Assembly (NCBI GenBank): GCA_026392845.1
Contig: JAPLBJ010000036.1
Coordinates: 1 to 50,141 of the forward strand
DNA from: Actinomycetota bacterium
GTDB taxonomy: Bacteria > Actinomycetota > Actinomycetes > Nanopelagicales > Nanopelagicaceae
Reading direction: 5' to 3'
Length of the DNA stretch: 50,141 nt
Both the position numbers and the translations under genes were made by a program. The notes beneath the pieces were generated by a model. It was not told the origin of the DNA. It did not search any database and saw only the letters and a list, made by a program, of their open reading frames with translations. Shown piece by piece: positions 15,846 to 41,536 of the stretch; within the stretch, counting starts at the first letter, position 1; each line of letters starts with the position of its first letter.

Positions 15846-16151
15846 TTACTTAGCTGCTGCCTTCTTGCGGCGGCGCTTCTTTGGAGCAGCTGCTGCTGCT
15901 GCCTTCTTCTTGCGACGCTTTGGAGCTGCCTTCTTAGCTGCTGCCTTCTTGCGGCGGCGCTTTGGAGCTGCCTTCTTAGCTGCTGCCTTCTTGCGACGCT
16001 TTGGAGCTGCCTTCTTAGCTGCTGCCTTCTTGCGACGCTTCTTTGGAGCTGCTGCCTTTACGGCTGCCTTCTTGCGACGCTTTGGAGCTGCTGATTTAGC
16101 AGCTGCCTTCTTGCGACGCTTCTTTGGTGCTGCTTTTTTTGCTGCGGCCAC
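15846..16151 (-). CDS. Lys/Ala-rich histone H1-like DNA-binding protein
   Basis: 101 residues made almost only of Ala, Lys, Arg and Pro, in repeats of the type KKAAPKRRKKAAA. This composition resembles the C-terminal tail of eukaryotic H1 and the tails of actinobacterial HU/Lsr2-type nucleoid proteins. There is no folded N-terminal domain, so it may be intrinsically disordered and bind or condense DNA or RNA by charge. Start is a GTG with AGGAG seven bases upstream. The opposite-strand frame over this region is Phe/Ala-rich and is a shadow. It stands alone: a terminator follows and a 180-base AT-rich gap precedes it. Confidence 0.85.
   Translation of the reverse strand: MAAAKKAAPKKRRKKAAAKSAAPKRRKKAAVKAAAPKKRRKKAAAKKAAPKRRKKAAAKKAAPKRRRKKAAAKKAAPKRRKKKAAAAAAPKKRRRKKAAAK
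15850..16145 (-). repeat. tandem repeats inside the H1-like gene
   Basis: GCTGCCTTCTTGCGACGC(T) and TTTGGAGCTGCCTTCTTA blocks recur about seven times (plus-strand reading), coding for KKAAPKRR-type units. The near-identity at DNA level suggests expansion and contraction by slippage or recombination. Confidence 0.8.
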
Positions 16152-16333: not shown

Positions 16334-17608
16334 TTATTTTCCCGAATTTTCATTTTTTTCCCGCAAAATTCGTTTTGTAACGGCATATTCGTTCGTTTCA
16401 ACGTCGAATTTTCGGAATTTGGGTAAGAAAATCATCAAAATAAGGACGGCAGCCACGCACATGATGCCACCGAAAGTTACCGAGAAGGTCAAGCTAGTAG
16501 CAGAGGCCATTGATGCGGCGCGAATTTGTCCAGCCATCGGACCAATTGAATATGAAAGTAATTCGATGCCGGCAAGACGTCCACGAAAATCATCGGGGAT
16601 CGATTGATTCCACATCGCACTTCGAAAGAGTGCACTGACCATGTCTGATGCCCCAGCCAATGCCAAAAAGATCAGGACCAAGATGAGTGAATGTGAAATT
16701 CCGGCAAGGGAAATGGCAGCGCCCCATCCCAGGGCAGCGATTGCGATAGCCCGCCCGTAATAGCGATAATGTTTTGTCCAACCGCTAGTCAAGGTGACTA
16801 GAACTGAGCCGACAGTTCCGGCGGCATACAACATTCCTAGCGCCCATGGTGTCCCAAGTTGGTCTGCCCAGAATGGAAAGAGCGCTGTTGGCATAGCAAA
16901 AAACATTGCAGAGAGATCTACCAGGTAACTTCCAAAAATATCTTTACGATTATATGAATATCGCACACCCTCTAATAAGCCTACCAGGGATGGTTTTTTA
17001 GCCTCATGAGAAGGCGGGATATTTCGAACTCGACTCAAGAATGCAAGGGAAACTACAAATGTAAATAGATCAACCATGTAACCAACAGGAATTGAATATG
17101 TCGAAATAAGAATTCCACCAATGGATGGTCCAATGATGACTCCTGCTTGCCAACGCAGACTCATGAGAGCACTCGCTGCCGGCAAATCTCGATAGTCCAC
17201 CAATTGGGGTAGTGCTGCATCAGCACTTGGTCGCTGCAATCCATTGACTGCAGCGAATAGTCCGATAACGATGTAAATAAGTAGCAGGTTTGGGTTTGGC
17301 ATGAGGGCATTGATGAGCAAAATGGAGACCAGAATCATTGAGAGAGCCTCGGTTACCCACACCATCTTCTTTCGATCAACAGCATCGGCTAATACACCAC
17401 CGTAGAGACCAAAAATAATGAGTGGAAGGATTTCAACAAGGCCACTGATGCCTACAGCTAGATACGAATTGGTCATCTCTTTGATCTGAAATGGAACTGC
17501 AACGTAGGTAATCATCGAACCTAAGTTGGTGATGAGCCCAGATGACCAAAGATTTCGAAAATCTCGAGATTTTCGCAGTGGCGCTAGGTCAATGGTGAAC
17601 TTTTTCAA
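16334..17608 (-). CDS. MFS transporter
   Basis: Major facilitator protein of 424 residues with twelve plausible helices. Seen: KSRDFRNLWSSGLITNLGSM at the N-terminus, the ADAVDRKK loop between helices 2 and 3, the central LQRPSADAALPQLV segment, and the FRGRLAGIELLSYSIGPMAGQIRA loop typical of actinobacterial EntS-like exporters. Start is a TTG that overlaps the panB stop (TTGA), so the two are translationally coupled; the next Met is 31 residues inside and would lose helix 1. Substrate unknown; the coupling to panB makes a pantothenate-related role conceivable but unproven. Confidence 0.87.
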   Translation of the reverse strand: MKKFTIDLAPLRKSRDFRNLWSSGLITNLGSMITYVAVPFQIKEMTNSYLAVGISGLVEILPLIIFGLYGGVLADAVDRKKMVWVTEALSMILVSILLINALMPNPNLLLIYIVIGLFAAVNGLQRPSADAALPQLVDYRDLPAASALMSLRWQAGVIIGPSIGGILISTYSIPVGYMVDLFTFVVSLAFLSRVRNIPPSHEAKKPSLVGLLEGVRYSYNRKDIFGSYLVDLSAMFFAMPTALFPFWADQLGTPWALGMLYAAGTVGSVLVTLTSGWTKHYRYYGRAIAIAALGWGAAISLAGISHSLILVLIFLALAGASDMVSALFRSAMWNQSIPDDFRGRLAGIELLSYSIGPMAGQIRAASMASATSLTFSVTFGGIMCVAAVLILMIFLPKFRKFDVETNEYAVTKRILREKNENSGK

Positions 17609-18417
17609 TGAAAAGTCTGCTCGTCTCCGGGAAATGTGCCACTTCGGACATCGTCTGCATATTCAGTGACTGCTGCAAGCATTTCTACCCGCAAATTTCG
17701 ATATGCCTTTGCAAGTTTAGGGGGATTCTGAGTAATACCCATCAAATCTGTCCATACCAATACCTGCGCATCGCAACTATTTCCAGCCCCAATTCCAATC
17801 GTTGGAATGGATAGTGCGCCAGTAATTTTCTGGGCTAATTCACTTGGGATGAGTTCGAGAACGATGGCAAATGCCCCTGCTTTTTCAAGGGCCAATGCAG
17901 CCTCAAGAATCGAATCTCCATCGGCGCGACCCTGAACGCGATATCCACCTAATTGATGGAGGGCTTGAGGCGTCAGGCCGAGGTGGCCCATCACTGGAAT
18001 TCCACTTGCGACTAATTTTTCAACGGTAACGATGTGAGCACCTTCTAGCTTTACGCCCATCGCACCAGACTCTTTGAAAAAGCGAGTTGATGTTGCAAGT
18101 GCTTGTTCGGGCGATGATTCATATGAACCGAAGGGAAGGTCTGCAATTACAAGGGCCCTCTTTGAACCACGAACCACGGCGCGAGTTAGGGGAATTAGTT
18201 CATCGACAGTGACGGCGATTGTATTTTCCCCGCCAAGGAAATTATTTCCCGCGCTATCTCCAACGAGGAGTACTGGAATTCCTGCCTCATCAAATATTTG
18301 CGCAGTCATGGATTCATAGGAAGTGAGCATCGCCCACTTTTCGCTACGTTTTTTTGCTGCAGCGAGATCAAGGATGGTGACGCGGCGATGCGTGGCTCCG
18401 CCATAGAGGGATTCCAT
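17605..18417 (-). CDS. panB: 3-methyl-2-oxobutanoate hydroxymethyltransferase
   Basis: First committed step of pantothenate (coenzyme A) synthesis: transfers a hydroxymethyl group from methylene-tetrahydrofolate to ketoisovalerate. 270 residues, normal length. Motifs: MLTSYESMTAQIFDEAGIPVLLVGDSAGN with the metal-binding Asp, VIADLPFGSYE, GAMGVKLEGA, MGHLGLTPQ, and GIGAGNSCDAQVLVWTDLMG near the C-terminus. Start ATG is preceded by AAAGGA. It is divergent from nadE, and the rest of the pathway is not in the window. Confidence 0.96.
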   Translation of the reverse strand: MESLYGGATHRRVTILDLAAAKKRSEKWAMLTSYESMTAQIFDEAGIPVLLVGDSAGNNFLGGENTIAVTVDELIPLTRAVVRGSKRALVIADLPFGSYESSPEQALATSTRFFKESGAMGVKLEGAHIVTVEKLVASGIPVMGHLGLTPQALHQLGGYRVQGRADGDSILEAALALEKAGAFAIVLELIPSELAQKITGALSIPTIGIGAGNSCDAQVLVWTDLMGITQNPPKLAKAYRNLRVEMLAAVTEYADDVRSGTFPGDEQTFH

Positions 18418-18505: not shown

Positions 18506-20185
18506 ATGAAGTTGCGTGTAGCGCTGGCGCAGATCAACCCCACTGTGGGCGATCTCGCGGGCAATAGCGCGCTCATTCGCGCCAACCTCAAAGAGGGTAA
18601 AAAAGCTGGCGCACATGTCATAGTTTTTCCAGAAATGATCCTTACTGGATATCCTGTTGAAGATTTAGCGACGAGGCCATCATTTCAAAGCGCCAGCATC
18701 AAGGCCGTTGAACAACTTGCCAAAGATATTGAATCCGATGGATGTGGCGACTTAGTTGGCGTTGTTGGCTATCTGGATCGAAATAATGGCGCCCCTCAAA
18801 ATGCCATTGCCTTGATACATGGCGGGCAAATAAAAGCCCGTTATGCAAAGCGCCACTTACCTAACTATGGCGTCTTTGATGAATACCGAAATTTTGTTTC
18901 CGGTGAAGGAACATTGGTTGCCCGGGTCCATGGAATCGATATTGGTTTTGCAATTTGTGAAGATATTTGGCAAGAGGCCGGGATGCTTGCCGACTTAGCT
19001 AAACGCACCCCTGGATTAGTTCTTGTTCCCAATGGCTCTCCCTTTGAACGAAAGAAAGATGGAGTCCGACTATCTCTAGTGCAAAAGCGCGCTAAAGAGG
19101 TTGGCGCTCCATTTGCATATGTAAATATGACGGGCGGACAAGATGATCTTGTCTTCGATGGCGACACCATCGTTGTCGATGCAAACGGAAAATTACTTGC
19201 CCGCGCTGCTCAATTCGATGACCAATTATTAGTTCTCGATATTGAAGCCAAGGGTGCTACTAGCAAGCCAGATGTAACTATTAGTGAAGATGAAGCGGTT
19301 ATTGCATCGCCTATCGCCGGCCTTATCGCACCAGAGATTTCAGAAGTCGAACAAATGTGGAAAGTGCTAGTTCTTGGTTTGCGCGACTACATTGAAAAGA
19401 ATGGATTCCGCTCTGTTGTACTGGGACTTTCAGGCGGCATTGATTCAGCACTTGTTGCAGCAATTGCAGTAGATGCCTTGGGAGCAAAGCGCATCAATGG
19501 TGTTGCGATGCCAAGTAAATATTCATCCGATCACTCCATAGATGATGCCAAAGAGTTTGCGGCAAATACGGGTATTCATTTCCGCACTGTTGCAATATCA
19601 CCGATGGTTGATTCTTATATGGCCAATCTGACGCTCAAAGGTTTAGCGGAGGAAAATCTGCAAGCCCGCGTGCGTGGTACGACGCTTATGGGCATTTCAA
19701 ATCAAGAGGGTCACTTAGTTTTAGCCACTGGAAATAAGAGTGAGCTCGCAGTTGGATATTCAACTCTCTACGGTGATGCTGTTGGCGGCTATGCCCCAAT
19801 CAAGGATATTTATAAAACAGATGTATGGGCACTTGCACGATGGCGCAATGCACAAGCGATTGCGGCTGGCGGAGTTGCACCTATTCCAGTGCGCTCCATT
19901 ACTAAAGAGCCAAGCGCTGAACTTCGGCCAGATCAAAAAGATTCTGATTCATTGCCAGATTACGAATTACTCGACAAGGTTTTAATGCGTTATGTCGATG
20001 GAGACGAAGGTTTTGATTCACTACTTGCAGCAGGTTTTGATAGTGCCCTTGTTACTCGCATTATTGGCTTAGTTGATAAGGCTGAATATAAGAGGCGCCA
20101 GTACCCACCAGGAGCCAAAGTGAGCGCTCGAGCATTTGGAAAAGATCGCCGTTTGCCTATGACTTCACGCTGGAGCGAAGAGTAG
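18506..20185 (+). CDS. nadE: glutamine-dependent NAD+ synthetase
   Basis: Last step of NAD synthesis, amidating deamido-NAD with ammonia from glutamine. 559 residues in two domains. The N-terminal nitrilase-type glutaminase has catalytic Glu43 (FPEM), Lys115 in YAKRHLPNYGVFDEYR and Cys151 in FAICEDIW. The C-terminal synthetase has the P-loop LGLSGGIDSALVAA, then ATGNKSELAVGYSTLYGD, and KDIYKTDVW. At 559 residues it is shorter than the roughly 680-residue mycobacterial form and matches the compact bacterial form. The start is leaderless. It is divergent from panB, so two cofactor pathways meet here. Confidence 0.96.
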   Translation: MKLRVALAQINPTVGDLAGNSALIRANLKEGKKAGAHVIVFPEMILTGYPVEDLATRPSFQSASIKAVEQLAKDIESDGCGDLVGVVGYLDRNNGAPQNAIALIHGGQIKARYAKRHLPNYGVFDEYRNFVSGEGTLVARVHGIDIGFAICEDIWQEAGMLADLAKRTPGLVLVPNGSPFERKKDGVRLSLVQKRAKEVGAPFAYVNMTGGQDDLVFDGDTIVVDANGKLLARAAQFDDQLLVLDIEAKGATSKPDVTISEDEAVIASPIAGLIAPEISEVEQMWKVLVLGLRDYIEKNGFRSVVLGLSGGIDSALVAAIAVDALGAKRINGVAMPSKYSSDHSIDDAKEFAANTGIHFRTVAISPMVDSYMANLTLKGLAEENLQARVRGTTLMGISNQEGHLVLATGNKSELAVGYSTLYGDAVGGYAPIKDIYKTDVWALARWRNAQAIAAGGVAPIPVRSITKEPSAELRPDQKDSDSLPDYELLDKVLMRYVDGDEGFDSLLAAGFDSALVTRIIGLVDKAEYKRRQYPPGAKVSARAFGKDRRLPMTSRWSEE

Positions 20186-20235
20186 GCCCGCTTTTCGTAA
20201 CACAGTCGTAACGAGGCATTGGCACAATGCCCTTC

Positions 20236-21552
20236 ATGTCCCCAAATGATTCAGAACATATGAGCAAGCAAGAAGATTTCGTCCTGCGCACATTAGAAGA
20301 GCGCAATATTCGATTTGTGCGATTGTGGTTTACCGATGTTCTTGGTTTTCTCAAATCAGTAGCGATTGCACCGGCAGAACTCCAGAGTGCATTTAGCGAA
20401 GGAATCGGATTTGATGGCTCTGCGATTGAGGGCTTTGCTCGAATAACTGAATCAGATATGTTGGCAAAACCAGATCCAACATCTTTTTCAATCTTGCCTT
20501 GGCGCACTGAAGCACCAGGGGCTGCGCGCATGTTCTGCGATATCACTATGCCAGATGGCTCGCCATCACCATCTGATCCACGCAATGTATTGCGTCGTAC
20601 TCTCAATAAAGCTGCGGAGATGGGTTACACCTGTTACACACACCCAGAGATTGAATTTTTCTTATTCAATGAAAAACCTGAAATTGGAAAAGCACCCGTT
20701 CCTGTAGATCAGGGTGGATATTTCGATCACACACCAGCGGTTGTAGGTCATGATTTCCGCCGTCAGGCAATCACGATGCTTGAAGCCATGGGTATTAGCG
20801 TTGAATTTAGTCATCATGAAGGTGCACCTGGACAACAAGAAATTGATTTGCGTTATGCAGATGCACTGAGTACCGCCGATAACATCATGACTTTTAGACA
20901 TGTCATCAAAGAAGTTGCGCTAGAGCAAGGCTTCTACGCATCCTTTATGCCCAAGCCATTTACAGAACACCCTGGAAGTGGAATGCATACTCACGTCTCA
21001 TTATTCAAAGGTGAAGAGAATGCATTTTATGATCCGAGTGCGGAGTTCAATCTTTCAGCGACAGGGCGCTCATTTATTGCAGGCATCTTGAAGCACGCAC
21101 CAGAAATTACTGCGATTACTAATCAGTGGGTGAATTCGTATAAGCGTTTACATGGCGGGGGCGAAGCACCTGCATTTGTGAACTGGGGTCCAAGTGATAG
21201 AGGCGCACTTGTTCGCGTTCCGATGTATAAACCAAAGAAAGAAAACTCAACACGTATTGAATTTCGCTCACCTGATTCTGCATGCAATCCATACCTTGCC
21301 TACGCCGTGATGTTGGCTGCTGGTCTTGCAGGAGTAGAGGGTCAATATGAACTCACTAACAATTCCGAACCAGATTCATTGCCAGCTAATCTTGATGAGG
21401 CAATTGCCGCGATGGAGAAGAGCACCCTTGTTCGCGAGACACTGGGTGAGCATGTATTCGAATTTGTGTTGCGAAATAAGCGTGCTGAATGGCAGGACTA
21501 TCGCCGCCAAGTAAGCGCTTACGAATTGGATCGCTACTTACCTGTTTTGTAA
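20236..21552 (+). CDS. glutamine synthetase, GlnA2-like (GSI-alpha type)
   Basis: Type I glutamine synthetase closely matching the actinobacterial GlnA2 group through EEGIGFDGS-like, MFCDITMPDGSPS, YTHPEIEFFL, EFSHHEGAPGQQEIDLRYADAL, MHTHVSLF and RSPDSACNPYLA (metal, glutamate and ATP sites). The NLY-type adenylylation tyrosine loop of GSI-beta is absent, so control by adenylylation is unlikely. Start is uncertain: ATGs at 20227, 20236 and 20263 are in frame. 20236 has a CACAAT hexamer 7 bases upstream; 20263 gives the N-terminus most like homologues. In Streptomyces, GlnA2-group proteins can act as gamma-glutamylpolyamine synthetases, so the substrate is not certain. Heliorhodopsin follows 24 bases downstream. 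Confidence 0.93.
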   Translation: MSPNDSEHMSKQEDFVLRTLEERNIRFVRLWFTDVLGFLKSVAIAPAELQSAFSEGIGFDGSAIEGFARITESDMLAKPDPTSFSILPWRTEAPGAARMFCDITMPDGSPSPSDPRNVLRRTLNKAAEMGYTCYTHPEIEFFLFNEKPEIGKAPVPVDQGGYFDHTPAVVGHDFRRQAITMLEAMGISVEFSHHEGAPGQQEIDLRYADALSTADNIMTFRHVIKEVALEQGFYASFMPKPFTEHPGSGMHTHVSLFKGEENAFYDPSAEFNLSATGRSFIAGILKHAPEITAITNQWVNSYKRLHGGGEAPAFVNWGPSDRGALVRVPMYKPKKENSTRIEFRSPDSACNPYLAYAVMLAAGLAGVEGQYELTNNSEPDSLPANLDEAIAAMEKSTLVRETLGEHVFEFVLRNKRAEWQDYRRQVSAYELDRYLPVL

Positions 21553-21564
21553 TCAATCCTGCAG

Positions 21565-21570
21565 TAACCT
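21565..21570 (+). promoter_or_regulatory. -10 element for leaderless heliorhodopsin gene
   Basis: TAACCT, ending 6 bases before the ATG, inside the 24-base gap after glnA. The heliorhodopsin gene may therefore be expressed independently as well as by read-through. Confidence 0.55.
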
Positions 21571-21576
21571 TTTTTC

Positions 21577-22338
21577 ATGACTAAAGAGACCAACGCCGGA
21601 AGTATTCGCAACTACAACCTTATTGCTGGGTTTTTTCACCTAGCTCAAATGGTTGTGGTTCTAGTACTAGCAAATGATTTCACACTTCCTATTGTTGCTC
21701 GTTATATGGCAGGGCCTCCAGGAAGTACTTTTGCAGAGCCAATCACATTACTTGATACTCCTATTGGTCTCGTCGTTGCAATCTTCCTTGGGCTCTCTGC
21801 CTTCTTTCATTTTCTAGTAGCTAGTCCAGCATTTTTCTCTCGATATAGTGCAGGCCTTGCATCGAATCGTAATTATTTCCGCTGGGTTGAATATTCAATT
21901 AGTTCATCAGTGATGATTGTTTTGATTGCCCAAATTTGTGGTGTTTCTGATGTTGCAGCAATTATTTCGATTTTTGGTGTTAATGCTTCAATGATTCTCT
22001 TTGGATGGCTACAAGAAAAATATGAAGAGCCAGGCAATGGTGGTTGGTTGCCATTTATTTTTGGCTGCATCGCAGGCATAGTTCCTTGGCTTTCACTTCT
22101 CTTTTATGTATTTGCAATCGGTGGCCCAGGAGATACAAAAGCACCAGCATTTGTCTATGGAGTAGTTATCTCCATCTTTGTCCTCTTCAATACTTTTGCA
22201 ATCGTTCAATATCTTCAATACAAGAAAGTTGGAAAGTGGTCGCAGTATCTGCGCGGGGAGAAGACATATATAACGCTCTCACTTATCGCTAAATCTGCTC
22301 TCGCATGGCAGATATTTGCCTCCACCTTGATTCAGTAG
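21577..22338 (+). CDS. heliorhodopsin
   Basis: Retinal-binding seven-helix membrane protein of 253 residues, closely resembling the founding actinobacterial heliorhodopsin 48C12. The Schiff-base lysine is Lys239 in SLIAKSALAWQIF. The counterion is Glu105 in FRWVEYSISSSVMIVLIAQ. The conserved retinal-pocket histidines correspond to His21 and His78. The stretch FGVNASMILFGWLQEKY is a family hallmark. Heliorhodopsins are inserted with the N-terminus inside and do not pump ions; a signalling or regulatory role is proposed. No carotenoid or retinal synthesis gene is in the window. The gene sits behind glutamine synthetase, which fits published work, as I recall it, in which an actinobacterial heliorhodopsin bound and modulated that enzyme. 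Confidence 0.97.
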   Translation: MTKETNAGSIRNYNLIAGFFHLAQMVVVLVLANDFTLPIVARYMAGPPGSTFAEPITLLDTPIGLVVAIFLGLSAFFHFLVASPAFFSRYSAGLASNRNYFRWVEYSISSSVMIVLIAQICGVSDVAAIISIFGVNASMILFGWLQEKYEEPGNGGWLPFIFGCIAGIVPWLSLLFYVFAIGGPGDTKAPAFVYGVVISIFVLFNTFAIVQYLQYKKVGKWSQYLRGEKTYITLSLIAKSALAWQIFASTLIQ

Positions 22339-22353
22339 CGCCCTTCGCGCTAC
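22335..22353 (+). terminator. short hairpin at the end of the heliorhodopsin gene
   Basis: GTAGCGC (22335-22341) pairs with GCGCTAC (22347-22353). There is no proper T-run after it, so it may be a weak terminator or part of the leuA leader. Confidence 0.35.
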
Positions 22354-22365
22354 TCTTTGAACCTT

Positions 22366-22410
22366 ATGAAGCTCCGCGGACTACTCCTTATCCGCCGTAG
22401 CGAGGCCTAA
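22366..22410 (+). CDS. leuL: leuA leader peptide
   Basis: A 14-codon frame reading MKLRGLLLIRRSEA, with three consecutive Leu codons plus one more, 78 bases upstream of leuA. Its 3' half overlaps the first arm of the pseudoknot at 22399-22449. Ribosome stalling at the Leu codons when leucyl-tRNA is scarce would change folding of the downstream RNA. There is no strong ribosome binding site in front of it. Confidence 0.75.
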   Translation: MKLRGLLLIRRSEA

Positions 22411-22470
22411 CAACCGGTCTCCTCGCTGCGGAGTTTGGTGTTGCCGGTTAACACATCCGGCCAACCAAAC
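22372..22470 (+). promoter_or_regulatory. leuA leader RNA (actinobacterial LEU-element pseudoknot)
   Basis: AGCGAGG (22399-22405) pairs with CCTCGCT (22421-22427). The loop of that stem contains AACCGG (22412-22417), which pairs with CCGGTT (22444-22449), giving an H-type pseudoknot. Competing or added helices are CTCCGC (22372-22377, inside the leader peptide) with GCGGAG (22428-22433), and GTTTGGT (22433-22439) with ACCAAAC (22464-22470), which ends just before the leuA ribosome binding site. A conserved pseudoknot called the LEU element is known upstream of leuA in many actinobacteria. Confidence 0.8.
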
Positions 22471-22474
22471 ATTT

Positions 22475-24204
<1,730 letters not shown>

Positions 24205-36213: not shown

Positions 36214-37341
36214 TTAGTGAATTCTTGCACCTTGACTAGGTAGCGAAGTAAAAAATCGTGGCGCTTTATAGCTATTTTCTTTGAATGCTTTTTCAATAGC
36301 TAATTTTGTTTTCTCTACATTCTCAGCTCTTACTAGTGCAATTGCACTTCCACCAAAACCTCCACCGACCATACGTGCACCCAGCGCTCCTGCAGCAAGT
36401 GAGGCATCTACTGCGCAATCTAATTCTGGGCAGGAAACTGTGTAATCATCTCGAAGCGAGATATGGGAAGCGTTTATAAGCTTCCCTAGTTCTACAAAAT
36501 CACTCTTCTCAAGTGCAATGACTGCATCTAAAACTCTTTTGATTTCAGTGACAGCATGGTGGGCGCGAATGAATTCGGTCTCTGTAATCTCTGATCTTTT
36601 CGAGACTAATTGGTCCATAGAAAGATGACGCATCGAGACTATGTTTAACTTCGCAACAACAGAATCACACGAAGCGCGTCGCTCGGCATAGCCCCCATCA
36701 ACTAATTCGTGATGTACCTGTGTATCAATAATGAGTAGTTCAAGGCCATGAGTTGCAACATGGAATGAAATGTTCTTTGTTGTGAGGTCGCGGCAATCCA
36801 GCAGTAGAGCGCTTCCTTTTTCTGCCATTAAGGAAACAGATTGATCCATAATTCCGCATGGCATTCCAACATAATCGTTCTCGGCTTTTTGGCATAAGCG
36901 AGCAAGTGTTGGAAGGTCGTGCCCTAGAGAAAAGAGAGAATTCAGCGCAGTTGCAACACTAGCTTCAAGGGCAGCAGAAGATGAGAGACCAGCACCAACT
37001 GGAACTTTCCCGTCAATGAAGATTTCAAGTCCAGTCTTTATGCCAAGTGACCAGATAACACCAAGTACATAGCGCTCCCAATCACCCTTGAGAGCAGGGG
37101 ATACATTAGAAATTGCCACAGATATAATTTTACTATTTCGTTGGACTGAAGCAATTTTTATTACATTCTCATCAGTTCTAGCGATAGCCACATCGGTGCA
37201 GTCATTGATGGCAAAAGGAAGAACAAAGCCTTCACTAAAATCAATATGTTCTCCAATGAGATTTACTCGACCAGGTGCACTTGCACAAATATCAGGGGAG
37301 TGGCCAAACACTTTTTCGAAGTTTGAGGAAATGGAACTCAT
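36214..37341 (-). CDS. galK: galactokinase
   Basis: GHMP-family kinase phosphorylating galactose at C1, first enzyme of the Leloir pathway. 375 residues. Galactokinase signature [21 protein letters not shown] (residues 22-42), ATP-binding [17 protein letters not shown] (114-130), catalytic-Asp segment [15 protein letters not shown], and [14 protein letters not shown] near the end. Last gene of the galT-galE-galK operon, 3 bases after galE. Confidence 0.96.
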
Positions 37342-37344
37342 TTA

Positions 37345-38298
37345 TTATCCAAAAGACGCGAGGGTATCTGAAACCATTGCTTCAAGATTTCTAGTGGGTT
37401 TCCATCGAAGAACGTGATTTGCTTTAGTTATATCAGCGATGAGAACAGCAGGATCTCCTGCGCGCCGCGGAGAATCAATAAATGGGATTTGAGAACCAGT
37501 TGCTTGCGATGCTGCCGCTATTACTTCACGAACTGAATAGCCACCGCCTGAACCCAAATTGAAAATCTCATGACCAGGATTTCCGAGAGTATTTTGCGCT
37601 TTGATATGTGCATCAATAAGGTCTACAACGTGCACATAGTCACGAACGCATGTGCCATCTTTTGTTGGCCAATCGCCACCAAATATCTTTACAGGATTTT
37701 CTGAAGAACTACGTAAAACATTTGGAATCAGGTGAGTTTCAGGATTATGGCGCTCTGTTAGCCAACCCCGAGAAGACTTATGCGCACCCGCTACATTGAA
37801 ATAGCGAAGTGATGCAGCAGATAATCCATGACCTCTAGCCTCATCTGTAATCATTGCATCGACAGCTAACTTAGATGCACCGTAAGCATTCGTGGGTCTA
37901 TTTGAAGCAGTTTCAAGTATTGGTAATACTTCTGGCTCACCATAGGTTGCAGCAGATGAAGAAAAGATCAGTTTCGAAATTTTGGCGGCGCGCATCTCAT
38001 CTAATAAGTTTCGGGTACCACCTACGTTGACGCTCCAATAGAGTTCAGGTTTTTCAACTGATTCGCCAACGAGTGATTTACCTGCAAAGTGCATAACTGC
38101 ATCACAACCCTTGAGGGCTTCTGCTATTTCACTGCGATTGAGTAACGAGCCCTTAACAAAAGTGACTCCGGTAGCAACATTAACGGCATGGCCTGTGCTG
38201 CAATCATCAAAAACACTGACTTCATAGCCTTGCGATATAAGAATATCTACAGCGGTTGAACCAATATAACCTGCGCCACCTGTAACTAATACTCGCAC
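37345..38298 (-). CDS. galE: UDP-glucose 4-epimerase
   Basis: Interconverts UDP-galactose and UDP-glucose. 317 residues, short-chain dehydrogenase fold. NAD-binding [10 protein letters not shown] (residues 5-14), active-site Ser region [12 protein letters not shown], catalytic pair Tyr139 and Lys143 (YGASK), and [18 protein letters not shown]. It sits between galT and galK with gaps of 2 and 3 bases. Confidence 0.96.
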
Positions 38299-38300
38299 TT

Positions 38301-39413
38301 TTATAACTTCACATCACGTAATTGACCGGCGGATTGCTCTGGGCGCATATCCATAATAAAGGCACCCATTGCAGATTCTGAACCAGCTAGATATTTCAAT
38401 TTTCCAGGAGCGCGTCGCACACTTGTTATTTGCCAATGAAGGCGCAATAAATCACGGCCCACGCGCACCGGTGCTTGGTGCCAAGCAGCAATGTACGCCA
38501 TCTCAATTCCAAATACTCCGTCTAAGCGTTTCATGACTTCAAGTGCAACCTCAGGGAATGCGTCACTTTGTTCTGATGTCAGTGAGGCCAAGTCTGCAAC
38601 AGGCTGTAGTGGTGCAACATGAATTTCAAATGGATAACGCGCTGCATAGGGAACAAATGCGATCCAATGAGCATTCCGAGCAATAACGCGCTTATCATCG
38701 CGAATTTCGCGAGCAACGACATCATCAAATAGAACACGTCCAGTCGATTCTTTGTAATCACGTGCAGCTTTGAGCATTTTTTCTACGCGAGGAGGCAAAT
38801 ATGAATATGCATAAATTTGTCCATGAGGATGAGCAAGGGTTACGCCAATTTCTTCACCGCGATTTTCAAATGGGGCGATGTGTTCTATGAATTTTTCTTG
38901 TGATAATTCACGAACACGGTCAGCCCATGCCTCAAGAAGAATGCGAACACGTGTTGGTGATAAATCTTTGAATGATTGTCCGTGATCTGCGGTAAAACAA
39001 ATCACTTCACACTTTCCAGCAGAAGTTCCTGTATCAGTTTCTGGTCCAACTAGATCAGGAAGTGCCCAATCACCTTGAGGTGGGCGAAGTGATGGGGAGC
39101 GATTATCAAAGACAACGACTTCATAATCACTTTCGGGAATTTCTGTAAGCAAATCTGCGCGAGTGGCACACAATGGACATAATTCTTTTGGAGGCAAGAA
39201 GATTCGTCCCTGACGATGTGCAGCCATTGCTACCCATTCGTTTACCAATGGATCAAGACGCAATTCGCCAATACCTGGTTGCTCTTCAACTGGGCGTTGA
39301 TCTTGTGCATTTCGGGCTTGGCCGGAAGTGTCGTAGTAGCGAATCGTGCGTCCATCGGCCATTACGCGATCCTGACGCGTAATTCCTGCACCTAAACTTT
39401 TACTCACACCCAT
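38301..39413 (-). CDS. galT: galactose-1-phosphate uridylyltransferase
   Basis: Leloir pathway transferase exchanging UMP between UDP-glucose and galactose-1-phosphate. 370 residues. Zinc site CPLC (79-82), FDNRSPSLR, FENRGEEIGVTLAHPHGQIYAY with nucleophile His197, and a C-terminal HWQITSVRR. Start: the ATG at 39413 has TAGAGT 9 bases upstream; the Met at 39362 (MADGRTIRYYD) is an alternative. First gene of galT-galE-galK, divergent from the alpha-galactosidase with only about 20 bases between start codons. Confidence 0.95.
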   Translation of the reverse strand: MGVSKSLGAGITRQDRVMADGRTIRYYDTSGQARNAQDQRPVEEQPGIGELRLDPLVNEWVAMAAHRQGRIFLPPKELCPLCATRADLLTEIPESDYEVVVFDNRSPSLRPPQGDWALPDLVGPETDTGTSAGKCEVICFTADHGQSFKDLSPTRVRILLEAWADRVRELSQEKFIEHIAPFENRGEEIGVTLAHPHGQIYAYSYLPPRVEKMLKAARDYKESTGRVLFDDVVAREIRDDKRVIARNAHWIAFVPYAARYPFEIHVAPLQPVADLASLTSEQSDAFPEVALEVMKRLDGVFGIEMAYIAAWHQAPVRVGRDLLRLHWQITSVRRAPGKLKYLAGSESAMGAFIMDMRPEQSAGQLRDVKL

Positions 39414-39421
39414 AGTGTCGT

Positions 39422-39428
39422 TACTCTA
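39422..39428. promoter_or_regulatory. symmetric -10 shared by galT and the alpha-galactosidase gene
   Basis: TACTCTA reads TACTCT on the plus strand (6 bases before the GTG of the alpha-galactosidase) and TAGAGT on the minus strand (9 bases before galT). One overlapping hexamer pair can serve both directions. Confidence 0.6.
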
Positions 39429-39433
39429 CCTTT

Positions 39434-41536
39434 GTGACCAAGCAAAGAGCACTTTTAGGCACGCTACATAGCTCATTGCTCTGCGAAGTTGTCGATGGTG
39501 CACTGGTTATTAGGCATTGGGGCGCACCACTTACAGGCGATATCACCCACATCGAAACCGCTCAACGACCAGCGATTGCAAACAGTGCATTTGATCAAAG
39601 TCAGAGTGGTGGAATCATGCGCGAGAGTTCTCGCGGATTTCTTGGTCGTCCAACACTCAGTGGCCATCGCAATGGAAGCGCATGGTCAACAAAATTTGAA
39701 GTAACAGATTTTCATCATGTCGGCGAAAAAGTAGTTGTCACGTTGCGTGATCTACACGTACAGCTTGAAGTAATTATTTCAATAGAGATGGATTCATTTG
39801 GAGTACTTACTCAAAATGCATCTATAAAGAATTTGGGGGATTCCCCGTATTCACTCGATGAGTTTATTCATTGGTTACCACTTCCACAGGAAGCGAATCA
39901 GACATTAGATTTTGCAGGTCGCTGGGCAAATGAGCGAAATCCTCAACGTCGCGATATTGCAACAGGTACATGGATTCGAGATTCACGAGAGGGACGAAGC
40001 GGGCACAATTTTTCGATTGCAGATATTGCATTGACCGCACAGACAACTTTCCAACATGGCCAAGCTTGGGCAACAAGTATTGCTTGGAGTGGAAACTCAC
40101 AATATTTGGTCGAACGAATTTGGAATGGTGAACAATCAATAGGTGCAGGAGAACTTCTATTGCCAGGTGAGGTTCAACTCGCACCGAATGAAACTTATGT
40201 TGCTCCAACTCTTATATCTGTATATTCCAGCGCTGGGTTGGATGGAATCGCTTCTGCATATCATCAACACATACGTGCGCGATCTATGCATCCTGCGCGC
40301 CCACGACCACTGACACTTAATATGTGGGAAGCAATTTATTTTGACCATAATGAGGAGAAAATCAAGAAACTCATTGATGTTGCCTCAGAAATTGGTATCG
40401 AGCGAGTTGTACTAGATGATGGATGGTTTCATAGTCGACGAAACGATAAATCTGGCCTAGGAGATTGGGTTATTGATCCTGCTGTTTGGCCAGAAGGTCT
40501 CTCGCCAATTATCAAATATATAAACGATAAAGGCATCGAATTTGGGCTCTGGTTCGAAGGCGAAATGGTCAATCCTGATTCAGATCTTTACCGCGCACAT
40601 CCAGAATGGATTTTGCATGAAGGCGATCGTGTTCCACCACTATGGCGCAATCAATTAGTTCTAGACCTTGGTCATGAAGGTGCATATAACCATGTGCTGG
40701 AGCAGACAAGTGCGATTCTTGGTGCGCATTCAATTGCATATATAAAGTGGGATCACAATCGAGTTTTAGTCGATGCGGGGCACCTTGGTAAAGCGGGTGT
40801 GCGCAGACAAACTCAAGCTATTTATCGCCTATTTGCAGAACTCAAGAAACGTCATAAAGGTCTTGAAATCGAATCATGCGCATCTGGTGGTGCACGTATT
40901 GACCTTGGAGTAATTGATTACGTCGATCGATTCTGGACAAGTGATAATAATGATGCACTTGCTCGCCAGAATATTCAGCGTTGGACATCACAAGTTATTC
41001 CACCTGAAATGCTTGGTACTCATATTGGTCCAACACATGGACATCAAACAGGTCGCACACTCGAACTCTCCATGCGAGCGACAACAGCGCTATTTGGTCA
41101 TGCTGGCATTGAATGGGACATCACGCAAACAACTCCAGCTGAACGTGAGCTCCTAAAATCGTGGGCCAACTATTACAAGTCAAAGCGCGCTCTGCTCCAT
41201 TCTTCAACAATGGTGCGCGTTGATTATCCTGATGATCATGGCTTATTACACGGTGTAATTTCAAAGAATAAAACTGAAGCAATTTTTGCTTATGTACAAA
41301 TCACTCCAACAGTTGCAGTAAATCCTTCACCCCTCAAATTTCCTGGCTTAGATGCAAGCGCGACATATGAAATTAGAGCGGCATTTCCAGCAGGAGAACC
41401 TAGATATATGTCAGTAAAAAAACCGGATTGGATGAGCGGAATAACTCTGTCAGGTTCTGCGCTATCTGCAATTGGAGTAAGCGCGCCAATACTCGCACCA
41501 GCAAATGCTTTCTTGATCGAAATTACAAAACGCTAG
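39434..41536 (+). CDS. alpha-galactosidase, GH36
   Basis: Hydrolyses alpha-linked galactose; 700 residues, standard GH36 size and domain order (N-terminal beta-sandwich, catalytic barrel from about residue 295, C-terminal sheet). Barrel motifs: [47 protein letters not shown], nucleophile Asp440 in [21 protein letters not shown], acid/base Asp504 in WTSDNND. No signal peptide, so it acts on imported galactosides. Start is a leaderless GTG. It supplies galactose to the divergent gal operon. Its stop overlaps glpK tail-to-tail. Confidence 0.95.

Follow-up and report, generated by a model that had tools for sequence, protein, structure and literature searches.

The analyzed window, a stretch of 50,141 nucleotides, is one contig of a 1.36-Mb draft genome (94.5% complete) of a freshwater lake bacterium, a Planktophila of the acI lineage. 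At the locus studied, panB on the reverse strand is followed on the forward strand by nadE, a gene for a glutamine synthetase-like enzyme (herein GS), a gene for heliorhodopsin (HeR), and leuA. The features of this locus are as follows:

17605..18417 (-), panB, ketopantoate hydroxymethyltransferase, conserved flank (Pfam PF02548, E 1.5e-100; NCBIfam panB)
18506..20185 (+), nadE, glutamine-dependent-type NAD+ synthetase with amidase and synthetase domains (Pfam, NCBIfam)
20260..21552 (+), glnA2, GSI-type gamma-glutamyl ligase, 430 aa (Pfam, NCBIfam, orthology, tree)
21577..22338 (+), heliorhodopsin, 253 aa (Pfam Heliorhodopsin, NCBIfam HeR, nearest solved structures)
22335..22353 (+), perfect 7-bp hairpin spanning the HeR stop codon (fold -11.4 kcal/mol, z -4.8; weak U tract)
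22366..22488 (+), leuA leader with a leucine-rich leader peptide ORF beginning at ATG 22366, MKLRGLLLIRRSEA and a stop codon (from sequence; intact in G006, a sister genome lacking HeR)
22489..24204 (+), leuA, 2-isopropylmalate synthase, conserved flank (Pfam, NCBIfam)

The ORF for the GS extends over 20227-21552 (+) and offers three candidate ATG codons (20227, 20236, and 20260). The best start is 20260, which is conserved across actinomycete orthologues (M-D/K-KQ-EFVLRTL). The protein matches both Gln-synt_N (E 7e-29) and Gln-synt_C (E 1.9e-115). The HeR gene is co-directional with glnA2, lies behind it in the nadE cluster, and begins 24 bases after its stop codon; both genes are present and intact. 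The initial annotation, which described a GSI-alpha-type enzyme followed at this distance by a heliorhodopsin with Lys239 and Glu105, was thus confirmed by sequence, Pfam, and NCBIfam. Elsewhere in the window, an ORF at 15846-16151 (-) consists of nearly nothing but Ala/Lys/Arg/Pro repeats, resembles a histone H1-type tail, and has no Pfam match. A galactose cluster at 36214-41536 includes genes for galactokinase, epimerase, GalT, and a GH36 alpha-galactosidase.

The nadE gene is presumed to be the first in a nadE-glnA2-HeR transcript, and the hairpin at 22335..22353 is a possible 3' end of this transcript. In G006, the HeR gene and this hairpin are both absent. A separate promoter for HeR, proposed in the initial annotation, was rejected: two promoter-like sites were found in 4.2 kb against 6.7 expected by chance from shuffles, and the site nearest to HeR lies more than 500 bp upstream, within the GS gene. 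The leuA gene is probably regulated separately, because its leader peptide ORF is located within a strongly folded leader (22339-22488, z -4.4); this arrangement suggests transcription attenuation. No Rfam riboswitch or leader was found at the locus, the sole Rfam match being a tRNA at 33.8 kb.

The gene pair has already been published and is not a discovery of this work. The orthologous pair AbGS-AbHeR was described in a panB/nadE/GS/HeR/leuA locus of Actinobacteria bacterium IMCC26103 (Cho et al., 2022; PMC9529153), and this is the report of HeR binding to glutamine synthetase to which the initial annotation referred. By calorimetry, the two proteins bind with a Kd of 100 uM in detergent and 6 uM in vesicles (PMC9529153). 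For AbGS alone, kcat/Km was 5.4; HeR raised it to 8.0 in the dark and to 12.2 in the light, a light gain of about 1.5-fold, and most of the effect was lost with K216Q HeR (PMC9529153). With ammonium, AbGS had a kcat of 0.15 per s and a Km for glutamate of 27 mM; in the light assay, ammonium (an 80 mM solution, about 50 mM in the reaction) was the sole nitrogen substrate and phosphate the sole readout (PMC9529153). AbGS gave partial complementation of an E. coli glnA mutant, and the authors noted both Ala55 and Pro238 and that the enzyme might catalyse another reaction (PMC9529153). Transcripts joining GS, NAD+ synthetase, and HeR were reported from freshwater Planktophila/Nanopelagicus (Bulzu et al., 2021; PMC8612252), although this evidence, the Class 1 co-transcripts, is metatranscriptomic and comes from outside the window genome. 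A later survey placed glutamine synthetase among ten HeR neighbour groups (PMC11109279). In our literature search, no paper naming heliorhodopsin together with GlnA2 was found, and the papers pairing heliorhodopsin with polyamine were, going by their titles, broad genome surveys.

The IMCC26103 operon is like that of the window in its gene order, its acI lineage, the Ala55 and Pro238 of the enzyme, and the HeR residues E105, S235, and K216/K217/K220. In contrast to the window, where HeR is directly followed by the leuA leader, a Gfo/Idh/MocA gene separates HeR from leuA in IMCC26103. The IMCC26103 genome also encodes blh, which was not found in the window genome, and its HeR has Asp at residue 223, where the window HeR has Gln.

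The enzyme encoded beside HeR is, with near certainty, an orthologue of the actinomycete GlnA2, the group to which it had been assigned initially. Matches to it were found in 118 of the 118 class genomes searched (64-98% identity), the next GS relatives reaching at most 45%. In the maximum-likelihood tree, it belongs to a 19-row GlnA2 clade (support 100/99) that is distinct from GlnA1 and from the remaining GS-like types. Its ammonium site is altered, Ser53 being replaced by Ala55 and Asn264 by Pro238. The adenylylation Tyr is also absent, as stated in the initial annotation, a 15-residue stretch having been deleted, so that none of these three GlnA1 (adenylylated GSI-beta) residues is retained. 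The deletion is common to all three Nanopelagicaceae genera compared, whereas other GlnA2s carry Trp there; it is unrelated to HeR, since genomes with no HeR behind glnA2 have it as well. A search for GlnE that was positive in three control genomes found none in the window genome.

Two other GS-like proteins are encoded in the same genome. One is a conventional GlnA1 with both Ser53 and Asn264, split over two contigs. The other, L002 (1177-2526), is closest to gamma-glutamylputrescine synthetase (421 bits, below the curated cut-off) and nearer to it than GlnA2 is. The neighbours of L002 encode an APC permease and a Gfo/Idh oxidoreductase. Peptidase_C26 was tried as a marker of the glutamylated-polyamine pathway and proved uninformative, with matches in 14 of 14 controls.

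In Streptomyces coelicolor, GlnA2 (SCO2241) is a polyamine ligase that makes gamma-glutamylputrescine and has no GS activity in vivo (PMC8998196). Its Km is 0.55 mM for putrescine and 1.06 mM for glutamate, it acts on ammonium only at a non-physiological concentration, its deletion results in a polyamine phenotype, and the losses of Ser53 and Asn264 have been reported for it. The Streptomyces-type orthologue in our set, L331 (9.7-Mb genome, family f19), is 72% identical to the window enzyme and also has Ala55 and Pro238. Its Asp150, Pro238, and Glu310, as well as its identity of 32.3% with the GlnA1 from the same genome, equal the published values for SCO2241; judging from these matches and the genome size, its source is probably Streptomyces-like, and the residue published as Glu55 in SCO2241, at the place of Ser53, reads Ala55 in L331. 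Unlike the window enzyme, L331 has no HeR beside it and retains the 15-residue loop with its Trp. The substrate was assayed for the S. coelicolor enzyme, whereas for the window enzyme it would be assigned by analogy. A different product has been described for Mycobacterium tuberculosis GlnA2, namely D-glutamine and D-isoglutamine (PMC1913930). Transporters for spermidine/putrescine are encoded in acI genomes.

The window HeR matches Pfam PF18761 over positions 1-242 of 242 (E 3.5e-98) and NCBIfam NF038020 with 342 bits (cut-off 100). The nearest solved structures are those of the 48C12 heliorhodopsin (6su3, 6uh3, 9ljj), which can be aligned to it over 245 residues; AbHeR and 48C12 were assigned to one subfamily (PMC9529153). 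By analogy with the 48C12 homologues, the window protein would have the inverted topology and bind retinal. The counterion Glu105, Ser235 at the second counterion place, and the Schiff-base (retinal) lysine Lys239 are present and invariant in the set of HeRs linked to GlnA2. The gene is under purifying selection (dN/dS 0.05-0.07 against the nearest linked relatives). Differences from 48C12 include a Gly where the window HeR has K217, and the GS near 48C12 is only about 37% similar to AbGS (PMC9529153). Several Nanopelagicaceae (L113, L141, L157, L180, and L182-L184) carry a further, highly divergent type of HeR with about 37-40% identity, in some genomes together with the usual one. In L185 (G007 contig 3, 84355-85079), the HeR frame is broken near the 3' end, which may reflect a pseudogene or an assembly error.

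The intracellular-loop lysines K216, K217, and K220, reported to contact GS, are present in the window HeR. Their respective counts are 41, 42, and 40 among the 42 linked HeRs; 27, 24, and 26 among the 27 Planktophila HeRs that belong to the same subfamily but are unlinked; and 54, 43, and 52 among 58 HeRs from other genera of the family. Being equally conserved in unlinked HeRs, these lysines are no signature of a partnership with GS. Position 151, which is Glu or Gln in linked HeRs and mostly Thr or Asn in the unlinked ones, and a few other positions do differ; a linked-specific interface is not claimed, because with just three supported independent pairs no significance is possible. The retinal-forming gene blh, present in 52 of 86 Planktophila genomes, was not found in the window genome, in the linked relatives G035 and G315, or in the single-contig G013. 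A similarly patchy distribution of blh in acI was reported by Kang et al. (PMC5301498). Since no blh was found, light control in the window organism would require another source of retinal. A type-1 rhodopsin is also encoded in the window genome.

HeR was found in 157 of 251 genomes of the order and, patchily, in 77 of 395 genomes of the class. The surroundings were examined for 186 distinct HeR sequences, 42 of which adjoin GlnA2, and all 42 belong to Planktophila. No GS neighbour was found among 109 HeR loci outside this genus, and no GlnA1-type neighbour was seen among the 186 sequences. Thus, the count called for initially, of GlnA2 against GlnA1 neighbours, came out wholly on the side of GlnA2, but inside one genus only. 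Within Planktophila, no other single gene adjoins HeR nearly as often as glnA2 does (42 of the 77 HeRs included in the tree). At this site HeR is always co-directional with GS and mostly within 20-70 bases of it. HeR is located behind GlnA2 in approximately 43 of the 97 Planktophila genomes with a GlnA2 match (41 counted, G627, whose locus was read, and G626, whose contig has the same coordinates as L387); 32 of the 97 have HeR only elsewhere, and none was found in the rest. As some loci are cut by contig ends, these linkage counts are lower bounds. Planktophila-like glnA2 loci also occur in public MAG records whose titles name Bifidobacterium breve or Streptomyces griseus (L370, L372, L373, L374, and L403), and these titles look mislabelled.

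The pairing of nadE with glnA2 is much older than the HeR at this site: nadE lies beside glnA2, without HeR, in many other families of the class, and panB is also present at one such locus. In a large Planktophila clade, an insertion of cysK and cysE separates nadE from glnA2 (for instance at L242, 2315-4000), and most of these loci have no HeR behind glnA2. HeR is dispensable, as G006, with a GS 98% and a LeuA 97% identical to those of the window, lacks it; there, GS runs directly into the intact leuA leader, a clean HeR-less site. Another clean loss was observed at L265 (G081), where glnA2 is directly followed by the Gfo/Idh oxidoreductase gene that in this clade usually comes after HeR. In the HeR tree, the linked HeRs form six groups interleaved with unlinked ones; six changes of linkage are needed, three of them forced by well-supported branches. 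The family-only HeR tree requires four changes and the GlnA2 tree seven, some apparent absences in the latter being contig ends. Compared with the window, G299 has a HeR 88%, a GS 83%, and a NadE 68% identical, and G157 has a more distant HeR (75%) against a GS of 87%. Judging from these sequence relationships, in-place exchange or repeated insertion of HeR must have occurred. Repeated independent insertion behind glnA2 is not claimed as proof of function, since in-place exchange accounts for the conflict between the trees. Recurrence alone is likewise no proof, because the interval between GS and leuA elsewhere holds a reverse-strand DinB-like ORF, other hypothetical ORFs, or a Gfo/Idh oxidoreductase, and because other HeR neighbours also recur across HeR lineages.

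Several explanations can be set against these data. The two genes may be neutral neighbours, the glnA2-leuA interval being a variable slot and HeR moving among sites with no action on glnA2. The other occupants of the slot, the many other HeR loci and recurring neighbours in the family, the loss or swapping of HeR in place, and the lack of specificity of the putative binding lysines all agree with this possibility; the predominance of glnA2 among HeR neighbours in the genus, the constant orientation and mostly short spacing, and the published co-transcription (PMC8612252) and in vitro binding (PMC9529153) speak against it, and we regard it as possible but doubtful. The initial annotation had taken the linkage as support for light-modulated nitrogen metabolism. 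As evidence for light control, the linkage is weaker than was claimed there: in Planktophila it occurs in under half of the genomes, it is absent elsewhere, it is cleanly lost in a near-identical sister, and it is not mirrored in the lysines reported to bind GS.

If the two proteins do interact, the reaction affected has to be considered. Cho et al. read the enzyme as a true glutamine synthetase, with HeR stimulating the assimilation of ammonium in the light. Phosphate release with glutamate, ATP, and ammonium, the partial restoration of growth of the E. coli glnA mutant (PMC9529153), and the general GlnA model, just passed with 430.9 bits against a cut-off of 429.15, are in line with this reading. 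Nevertheless, the enzyme has neither Ser53 nor Asn264, like the Streptomyces GlnA2 devoid of in vivo GS activity, the assay used about 50 mM ammonium and measured phosphate only, and a standard GlnA1 with both residues is encoded in the same genome; this reading is considered unlikely. Least probable of all is a light-tuned GlnA2 that supplies the cell wall with D-glutamine or D-isoglutamine. The description of the M. tuberculosis enzyme (PMC1913930) points in this direction, and a function in the cell wall or in housekeeping would suit an enzyme found almost throughout the class; however, the Streptomyces enzyme glutamylates polyamines, its deletion gives a polyamine phenotype, and the locus contains no pointer to peptidoglycan.

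On balance, we lean slightly towards the explanation that the locus is a copy of the published GS-HeR operon in which the enzyme is GlnA2, likely an amine ligase, and HeR a non-essential light modulator. GlnA2 is an ancient, near-universal actinomycete gamma-glutamyl ligase with an altered ammonium site, and it most likely joins glutamate to an amine; by analogy, putrescine-like polyamines fit the known member best. HeR would have been inserted behind the old nadE-glnA2 cluster within Planktophila and be transcribed together with it, and would probably act as a modest, light-dependent modulator contacting GlnA2 from the membrane. The gene identities, the GlnA2 membership, the distribution, the dispensability of HeR, and the selection on it are established directly here. 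Others demonstrated binding, together with a slight effect of light on the release of phosphate, for the IMCC26103 orthologue only; for the window organism, we infer the amine substrate and the light control.

Poor activity of AbGS with ammonium, set beside good activity of Streptomyces GlnA2 with putrescine, fits the assignment to GlnA2 well. The gene order shared with IMCC26103, the published co-transcripts, binding, and light gain, the orthology and tree position of GlnA2, the separate GlnA1, the acI polyamine transporters, the co-directional HeRs, and the purifying selection on HeR are also in favor of the preferred explanation. Against it are the restriction of the linkage to fewer than half of the genomes of a single genus, the 98%-identical sister without HeR, the equal conservation of the reported GS-binding lysines in unlinked HeRs, and the absence of blh from the finds in this genome, G035, and G315, as well as the partial complementation of E. 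coli glnA by AbGS and the closer relation of L002 to gamma-glutamylputrescine synthetase. A functional HeR-GlnA2 partnership is likely, though not proven by linkage, and a polyamine as the GlnA2 substrate, suggested in the initial annotation, is plausible, as it agrees with the residues and with the weak kinetics on ammonium. The full proposal, that the partnership of HeR with 'glutamine synthetase' is light control of a gamma-glutamyl amine ligase tuning polyamine use, not ammonium assimilation, is put forward tentatively, as an idea that may well not hold.

The only fresh element here is this re-reading of the substrate, from ammonia to an amine, on the grounds that the partner is GlnA2. The GS pair is among the few HeR pairs with biochemical evidence. 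The GlnA2 identity of the partner explains the poor published kinetics with ammonium, and because the enzyme is of this type, the published light effect on 'ammonia assimilation' merits a re-test with amines. Sister genomes with and without HeR behind a near-identical GlnA2 provide natural controls. The lysines proposed as the GS-binding site should be treated with caution, as they are not specific to GS-linked HeRs. If the proposal is true, a photoreceptor would tune the use of polyamines in a bacterium that ranks among the most abundant in fresh water.
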